DNA from: Kofleriaceae bacterium
GTDB lineage: Bacteria > Myxococcota_A > Polyangia > Haliangiales > Haliangiaceae
NCBI GenBank assembly: GCA_018057825.1
Contig: JAGPCY010000016.1
Location: forward strand, 1-64,000
DNA: 64,000 nt
Direction of reading: 5' to 3'
Under the pieces are notes generated by a model, which saw only the letters and a program-made list of their open reading frames with translations, did not search any database and was not told the origin of the DNA. Numbering within the stretch: position 1 is the first letter of the stretch; every line of letters starts with the position of its first letter. Shown here one piece after another: positions 59,463-60,762 of this stretch. The translations under genes were made by a program, and so were the position numbers.

Positions 59463-59534
59463 GGGCCCATAGCTCAGCGGTAGAGCAGCGGCCTTTTAAG
59501 CCGTTGGCCGAAGGTTCGAATCCTTCTGGGCTCA
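59463..59534 (+). tRNA. tRNA-Lys (anticodon TTT)
   Basis: 72 bases. Acceptor GGGCCCA pairs with TGGGCTC; D-arm GCTC/GAGC; anticodon stem GCGGC/GCCGT with loop CTTTTAA (anticodon TTT); T-arm GAAGG-TTCGAAT-CCTTC; discriminator A. CCA is not encoded. Confidence 0.97.
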
Positions 59535-59543
59535 CACACCTAC

Positions 59544-59616
59544 GACCCCATCGTCTAGAGGCCTAGGACACCTGCCTTTCACGCAGGCGACACGGGTTCA
59601 AATCCCGTTGGGGTCG
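59544..59616 (+). tRNA. tRNA-Glu (anticodon TTC)
   Basis: 73 bases, nine bases after tRNA-Lys. Acceptor GACCCCA pairs with TGGGGTC; anticodon stem CCTGC/GCAGG with loop CTTTCAC (anticodon TTC); T-arm region CGGGT-TCAAATC-CCGT; discriminator G. CCA is not encoded. Its 3' end faces the TIR-like locus. Confidence 0.97.
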
Positions 59617-59802
59617 CTTCTCTCTTCGGTCCGTTCGTTCCGTTCCGTCGGTCGGTATGGCACGACGCCAGGTCGCTCGGCGAGGCCGCCGTGACCTTTC
59701 GCAGCGGCACGCCTGGGTCCGCGGGACGCTGGCGCTGGATTCCTCCTCCGTCTTGGTCCAGGTGGCGTCGTCGATGCACTAACGGACGAAGGTCAGCCGC
59801 GA

Positions 59803-60090
59803 TCACTGCGAGTGCGTCGCCACCACGCGGTCGTACGTCGCGAGGAGGTACCCGCTGTAGCGTGCATCGTACTCGCCGAGCGTCGCTCGAAGCAGTTGCT
59901 CGTCACAACGCTCCCACTTCGCAGCGAGGCCCGGGAGGTTGTGGACGGCGTCCATGAGGCGCGTGAGCTGCTTCGACCGCTCGATCGACCATCCATCGCG
60001 TTGCCCTGCCGCCCCGAGCGACCGGGCTTGGAGCGTGGCGTGATAGAGAACCTCGAGACAAGCGGCGAGTTGCGGCCCTGGCGCGAACAT
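59803..60090 (-). CDS. Small hypothetical protein next to the TIR gene
   Basis: 95 residues from an ATG at 60090, MFAPGPQLAACLEVLYHATL to RVVATHSQ. It is mostly helical and has less of the Arg/Pro bias of shadow frames, which suggests real coding. It is 100 bases downstream of the TIR-like gene on the same strand. No family is recognised. If real it could be a partner or a helical regulator of the TIR protein. Confidence 0.5.
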   Translation of the reverse strand: MFAPGPQLAACLEVLYHATLQARSLGAAGQRDGWSIERSKQLTRLMDAVHNLPGLAAKWERCDEQLLRATLGEYDARYSGYLLATYDRVVATHSQ

Positions 60091-60189
60091 CCTCCGAGTA
60101 TGTCAGGGGGCGGCGGCATCAGCGCGGCGGTGCTGCGTGCGTGTCGAGGGAGGTCCCGCAACGGAGCCGGCGTGGGGTCGGGGCCCAGG

Positions 60190-60762
60190 TCACGACCAGT
60201 GGGTCCCGGTGCGGTTCTTGGCGAAGGATGGAGACGCGTTGTCCGGGGTCACGCGCGCCTTGCGCAGGTACGCCTCGTGGATCCACGTCTGCACCTCGGC
60301 GGGATCGTCGGACCACGGGTGAAGGGTGGCGTAGCCGCACTGCACGTTGTCGTGAAGGCGCGGCGGGATCGTGAAGGGGGCGTAGGCGCCGACGGTCTTG
60401 TCCCACCGGACCTGCACGACGCCGGGGTAGGCCTCGCGGTACGACGGGAGGTAGATGCCGAGCAGCCCGCCGCGCGGGTTGTGCTTCGTGTCGCGCAGGG
60501 TGGCGCCGATCTCCCAGTCGACGTGCTTGCGCTGCCAGGTCTGGAGGCCGATCAGCACCACCGTGACGCTGCAGTCGCGCAAGAACTCGTCGCGGATCTT
60601 CTGGCGGATGGTCTCGGTCTGGTAGGTCGGGTCGATGTCCCCGAGCTCGACCGAGCCCCGCTCGAGGATGTCGAACCGGTGGCCGAACCGCCGGTCGAAG
60701 GTCGCCTTGTCGGCCTGGTCGTTGGCGTGGTGGTAGCTGACGAAGGTCTTGTGGCGCTGCAT
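60190..60762 (-). CDS. TIR-like (DUF1863/ThsB-type) domain protein
   Basis: 190 residues. The start MQRHKTFVSYHHANDQAD is the beta-A strand of MTH538-type TIR domains (FVSYHxxND). A middle block SVTVVLIGLQTWQRKHVDWEIGATL holds the Trp and Glu expected at the active site. Later GIYLPSYRE and VQCGYATLHPWSDDP follow. This family includes ThsB, the TIR sensor of Thoeris anti-phage systems, but no thsA-like NADase gene is seen next to it; the only neighbour is the 95-residue ORF. Nearby genes show less GC bias. The protein could make a nucleotide signal or cleave NAD. Confidence 0.8.
   Translation of the reverse strand: MQRHKTFVSYHHANDQADKATFDRRFGHRFDILERGSVELGDIDPTYQTETIRQKIRDEFLRDCSVTVVLIGLQTWQRKHVDWEIGATLRDTKHNPRGGLLGIYLPSYREAYPGVVQVRWDKTVGAYAPFTIPPRLHDNVQCGYATLHPWSDDPAEVQTWIHEAYLRKARVTPDNASPSFAKNRTGTHWS

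Follow-up and report, generated by a model that had tools for sequence, protein, structure and literature searches.

A ThsB-family TIR gene standing alone near a tRNA pair in a Kofleriaceae bacterium, and the recurrent partners of its relatives

Gene organization around the TIR gene

The stretch of DNA analysed here, hereafter the window, comprises the initial 64 kb of contig C66 (190,579 bases) from the genome of a Kofleriaceae bacterium (8.9 Mb in 84 contigs). Near its end, two tRNA genes are accompanied by a TIR gene, a small ORF and further neighbours, arranged as follows:

59001-59420, minus strand: PilZ-domain protein on the far side of the tRNAs, a conserved flank (Pfam PilZ, 3.1e-11)
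59463-59535, plus strand: tRNA-Lys(ttt), by ARAGORN
59544-59617, plus strand: tRNA-Glu(ttc), by ARAGORN
59803-60090, minus strand: 95-aa ORF, predicted all-helical, with homologs in other genomes
60190-60762, minus strand: ThsB-family TIR gene of 190 aa (ORF with a Pfam ThsB_TIR match)
60956-61546, minus strand: 196-aa ORF without Pfam match, upstream of the TIR gene on the same strand after a 193-base gap

The TIR gene is transcribed toward the tRNA pair; past its stop and before the tRNAs comes the 95-aa ORF, on the same strand as the TIR gene and 99 bases away from it. ARAGORN and the ORF list agree with a preliminary description of this DNA on the places of both tRNA genes, the 95-residue ORF and the TIR gene; that description also set the TIR gene beyond tRNA-Glu, where it indeed lies, at a distance of 574 bases that has to be corrected to 572. 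According to Pfam, the stretch is flanked on one side by the PilZ gene and a 5-FTHF cyclo-ligase gene, and on the other by two ORFs without any match. The gene next after the cyclo-ligase is presumably RNase Y-like. The 196-aa ORF has matches in two of 21 genomes, its own and the same-genus G003, and shows no synteny with the G003 match. Elsewhere in the window, arrays of a 6-base repeat at 62426-62567 and 55119-55360 generate long repetitive ORFs, the former array being similar to one near position 1400-1660 of a stretch of contig C47 of the same genome (L006), and positions 54668-55035 hold 2.3 copies of a 162-base tandem unit with 90% matches.

The tRNA pair itself is a stable landmark. Both genes are paired in all ten relatives' loci scanned, with a PilZ homolog beside them in eight and also the 5-FTHF cyclo-ligase and RNase Y-like genes in six. 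Beyond the tRNAs, no protein is common to nine relatives' stretches (2.9-9 kb each) and the first 44 kb of C66, and therefore the edges of an insert could not be set; the only two proteins that these stretches and the contig have in common are distant, approximately 45 and 55 kb past the tRNA. Synteny on that side of the tRNA pair is lost in general. A defined empty site was also sought and discarded, given the lack of a common protein beyond tRNA-Glu and of synteny for the 196-aa neighbour in G003. The proposal that tRNA-Glu served as an insertion point did not hold up: no word longer than 12 bases from either tRNA recurs in positions 1-118000 of the 190,579 bases of C66 (longest, 12 nt each), and no tyrosine integrase (PF00589) was found on this contig, the five detected in the genome being all on other contigs.

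Family assignment and active site of the TIR protein

The 190-aa protein matches Pfam ThsB_TIR (PF08937) with an E-value of 1.2e-15 and 58.2 bits, above the curated cut-off of 21.2, while its PADLOC matches, to PDC-M50B (5.8e-9) and ThsB (6.7e-8), are both weak. The GC3 of the gene is 0.97. We aligned 44 TIR sequences, namely the window copy, its two paralogs and those of 41 of the 80 relatives' loci described below. E84, within the motif TWQRKHVDWEI, is invariant in 44/44 sequences and F7 is kept in at least 90%; the window gene has an intact frame and keeps every invariant column. A profile built from this alignment matches the ThsB structure 6lhy (E 9.4e-6) over profile positions 3-91 of 176, with the glutamate columns aligned. 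The catalytic glutamate of ThsB is given as E85 in excerpts of one report (PMC10022894), and those of another state that NAD-cleaving TIRs usually carry Phe or Ala in the place of the EcThsB2 Tyr (PMC11204291), a position occupied by F7 in the window protein when the alignment to 6lhy is read by eye. By alignment, F7 and E84 would make up its active-site pair, so that the residues whose absence would have spoken against the preliminary proposal appear to be present. Because of the Pfam match at 1.2e-15 and the invariance of the E85-equivalent glutamate, the window TIR looks catalytically intact, and its initial description as a DUF1863/ThsB-type TIR is borne out by the Pfam match together with the active-site Phe and Glu.

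Copies, distribution and selection

The preliminary description had called for a comparison of the locus among relatives, with conservation in all of them as the outcome that would count against its proposal. A protein search of 36 genomes (its own and 35 others, including six congeners) found the TIR in its own genome only, and in none of the 35 others; the gene is variable among relatives. Within this genome there are three copies: the window copy on C66, one on C79 (70% identity) and one on C47 (64% identity), which form a single clade with support 100/99, the bootstrap being not fully settled. A profile search of 377 genomes of the phylum returned 18 positives at E 0.001, several by weak scores only, among them G003 (1.9e-4). 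On plasmids, matches were found in 149 of 72,556 records, all below 60% identity, 92 of them with at least 80% covered at one place; among 50,697 phage records there were two weak matches, both in records of one phage. The NG86 dN/dS of the window gene is 0.38 and 0.45 against its paralogs and 0.22 against the relative L007, and that between the C79 and C47 paralogs is 0.26.

The paralogs differ in their surroundings. At C47, about 11 kb hold on one strand a TIR-NB-ARC-TPR gene, the TIR paralog, a 567-aa TIR protein, a member of a protein family that we call c1 and an 853-aa TIR-SLOG protein, with a 740-aa TIR-SLOG protein on the opposite strand. This c1 (L006 11061-11591) is the only one found in the genome; besides the two TIR-SLOG proteins, SLOG cluster2 matches one further frame, on C8, in two pieces. 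On C79, next to the second paralog, is a 985-aa frame whose match to TIR falls below the threshold.

The 95-aa ORF

Six of 317 genomes of the class, its own included, matched the 95-aa ORF at E 0.001. The match in G271 was dropped, as its frame reads by eye as an alpha/beta-hydrolase-like protein; the homologs kept are two in G303 and one each in G283, G273 and G226, with up to 55% identity, all from another family of the class. NG86 dN/dS was about 0.28 and 0.40 against two homologs, a third giving no usable dS, and GC3 is 0.79. Both this ORF and the TIR gene are real genes, beyond chance. The 95-aa protein has no match in Pfam, PADLOC or NCBIfam; in a scan of ten proteins at the homologs' loci, five of them the homologs themselves, one match (DUF7832) was above the cut-off and an RHS match at the G226 locus fell below it. 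The structure prediction suggested in the preliminary description yielded an AlphaFold2 model of helices only, with a pLDDT of 92.0 from six sequences, two of the five models reaching only 75-78. A fold search with it gave no PDB match at E <0.001; the four-helix bundle 2rld (S23-type) aligned at E 3.6, with a TM of 0.61 of the query.

That an unfamiliar small protein might take part in place of ThsA was proposed in the preliminary description, and this idea found no support. The 95-aa profile has no match in 82 TIR loci (L005-L086), and three TIR profiles have none in the six 95-aa loci (6.5-12 kb each). The possibility that the ORF is a shortened c1 was also rejected (hhalign probability 0.5%). 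The gene appears to encode a small helical protein unrelated to the TIR.

Recurrent neighbours of related TIR genes

A peptide-pattern search of 84,980 species genomes returned 101 stretches, 97 of which encode a relative of the TIR; the best 80 of these 97 were kept, a set biased by design to close relatives. Partner profiles were built from recurrent neighbours and counted within 5 kb of the TIR. Family c1 occurs at 36 of the 80 loci, a second TIR at 31, Nmad2 at 15, HMUDK at 11 and MazG_C at 8. The TIR-SLOG profile matched at 29 loci, a count that was lowered to 24 after discounting five loci that match only its TIR part. Either c1 or SLOG is found at 57/80 loci, and any of the five specific types (c1, SLOG, Nmad2, HMUDK, MazG_C) at 60/80, leaving 20 with none of the five. 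At 46 loci the sequence extends for 5 kb to either side of the TIR, and of these 13 lack all five specific types and 8 lack all six; at least one "lone" locus, L037, nevertheless has a TIR-NACHT protein nearby. None of the six types was found near the window TIR, in the 12 kb of the window end examined, nor near the C79 paralog in its 17 kb. The window TIR thus stands alone, a minority state among its relatives.

Several of these loci have features of their own. At L008, L011, L012, L013, L020, L022 and L025, the TIR lies amid TIR-SLOG, a second ThsB TIR, Nmad2 and an HMUDK-like protein, with MazG_C also present in five of the seven; such loci resemble a defence module related to base modification or nucleotides. 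Searches of one open library found no literature on TIR with Nmad2 or HMUDK, or on LSDAT with TIR. More distant TIRs (38-48% identity) were seen by eye in type I restriction-modification-like loci (L059, L060, L061, L063, L069, L073, L075, L085), sometimes with a protein of about 150 aa carrying hydrophobic stretches (cluster c8). Two Enterobacterales plasmids (L154 and L157) carry a TIR gene of 33-35% identity that is convergent with a gene for a 235-aa hypothetical protein; L154 is a 4.9-kb plasmid whose TIR is 34.7% identical, and its other listed genes are an HTH gene, the convergent gene, a replication gene and a toxin-antitoxin pair.

The c1 family

Family c1 (about 130-260 aa in most matches) is found directly beside TIR genes in several bacterial phyla and in archaea, on the TIR's strand and at most 60 bases away in 29 of the 80 loci. 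The 30 members aligned gave no match in NCBIfam; in Pfam two matched KinB_sensor (best 0.0041), and in PADLOC three matched JetC (best 5.6e-4) and one AbiEi. Beyond these weak matches, c1 is without a named family in the three collections. Its AlphaFold2 model (pLDDT 90.5) consists of a beta-hairpin followed by helices and retrieved nothing from the PDB at E <0.001. An N-terminal hydrophobic stretch, possibly membrane-associated, is visible by eye in the alignment in some members.

A search independent of TIR detected c1 in 7 of 377 genomes of the phylum. Three of them have a TIR-profile match (G000, G218 and G346, in the last on another contig) and four have none, and therefore c1 also occurs independently of this TIR. 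At L158, c1 is followed by a further TIR protein and by a MinD-like ATPase that carries TIR and pYEATS domains; at L161 there is a TIR-SLOG match on the stretch of c1, and L159 and L160 gave no match to any of the other six profiles. No published description of the TIR-c1 pairing was found in one open library, c1 being nameless for searching. The window locus is ordinary; the newer lead is the pairing of TIR and c1 at other loci, with c1 as a specific candidate for an additional TIR partner.

Possible roles of the window TIR

Judging from sequence, the window gene is probably a lone and active ThsB-family TIR. We see about an even chance that it is a sensor-type protein, one of three sister copies, with an effector in trans and with no relation to the 95-aa gene. 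As the mechanism is modelled on ThsB, phage infection would activate this sensor, which would consume NAD+ and make an ADP-ribose-derived signal for an effector that is probably non-local, acting in trans. The likeliest receivers would be the two TIR-SLOG proteins at C47 (the genome has a third SLOG frame, on C8); TIR-SLOG proteins may not need an outside signal, because they carry a TIR of their own. Action in trans is favoured by the presence of c1 or SLOG at 57 of the 80 relatives' loci and by the C47 unit in the same genome. On the other hand, lone copies are not rare (20/80), the C79 paralog is lone too, and the scanned neighbours of the TIR include housekeeping-type genes (PilZ, 5-FTHF cyclo-ligase) and none of defence. 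A bolder version, which we consider rather unlikely, is a dispersed trans-acting network in which three ThsB-like sensors at three loci would have the TIR-SLOG/c1 unit of C47 in common, with c1 as a general, undescribed partner of TIR proteins; in such a network sensors could be added anywhere without an effector of their own.

The conserved catalytic Glu and Phe, and the lack of a recognised partner in the 12 kb examined, would also suit a self-sufficient effector that oligomerises on infection and destroys NAD+ unaided, as would the partnerless minority among the 46 fully covered loci and the small plasmid L154 with its few other genes. This explanation seems somewhat unlikely in view of the 60 loci out of 80 where a specific partner type lies no more than 5 kb away, of the TIR-NACHT protein at the seemingly lone L037, and of ThsB itself, which, as far as excerpts of the reports go, caused alone no NAD drop in plant leaves (PMC10022894) and no NAD cleavage in vitro (PMC7272460); these negatives are tempered by a loop-modified ThsB that consumed NAD in vitro (PMC10022894, likewise in excerpt). 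The same solitary position, with two further copies in the genome and none in 35 others, could mark a superfluous copy, useless and decaying, that arose by duplication or transfer, a reading that is distinctly unlikely for a gene with an intact frame, all invariant columns kept, dN/dS values below 0.5 and a GC3 of 0.97. A two-gene unit of TIR and 95-aa protein, in which the latter would be regulator, inhibitor or effector, is very improbable: the two genes share a strand at 99 bases and both look coding, but their families do not meet at any of the 82 TIR loci or six 95-aa loci, and the small protein does not match c1. When a TIR gene stands alone, it is tempting to count it and the adjacent ORF as a new two-gene system; here the 80-locus comparison reveals which partners recur with this TIR subfamily, and the window gene has none of them. 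If lone TIRs of the preferred sensor type do signal in trans, defence-gene finders requiring adjacency would undercount Thoeris-like sensors.

Comparison with known defence systems

The window protein resembles Thoeris ThsB (BcThsB, PDB 6LHY, PF08937) in its TIR-like domain and in the places of the Phe and the catalytic Glu, although the similarity to 6lhy is remote and no ThsA-like gene is recognised beside it. In agreement with the preliminary description, which had noted the lack of ThsA, the six proteins of 58276-62222 have no SIR2, SLOG or macro match. A search for ThsA with STALD (PF18185) gave no match in this genome, nor in any control genome. The best PADLOC match is the candidate system PDC-M50B, which is matched by all 44 aligned TIRs, although for the window protein the match reaches only 34 bits and spans about 100 of 162 positions. 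Finally, excerpts of one paper (PMC9503650) refer to earlier work on TIR-SLOG-based antiviral systems. The window locus differs from TIR-SLOG systems (SLOG cluster2, PF18163) in having no SLOG protein or c1 within 5 kb, nor any SLOG match on C66; its relatives are often found in such systems (24/80 loci), and its own genome carries SLOG proteins at C47 and C8.
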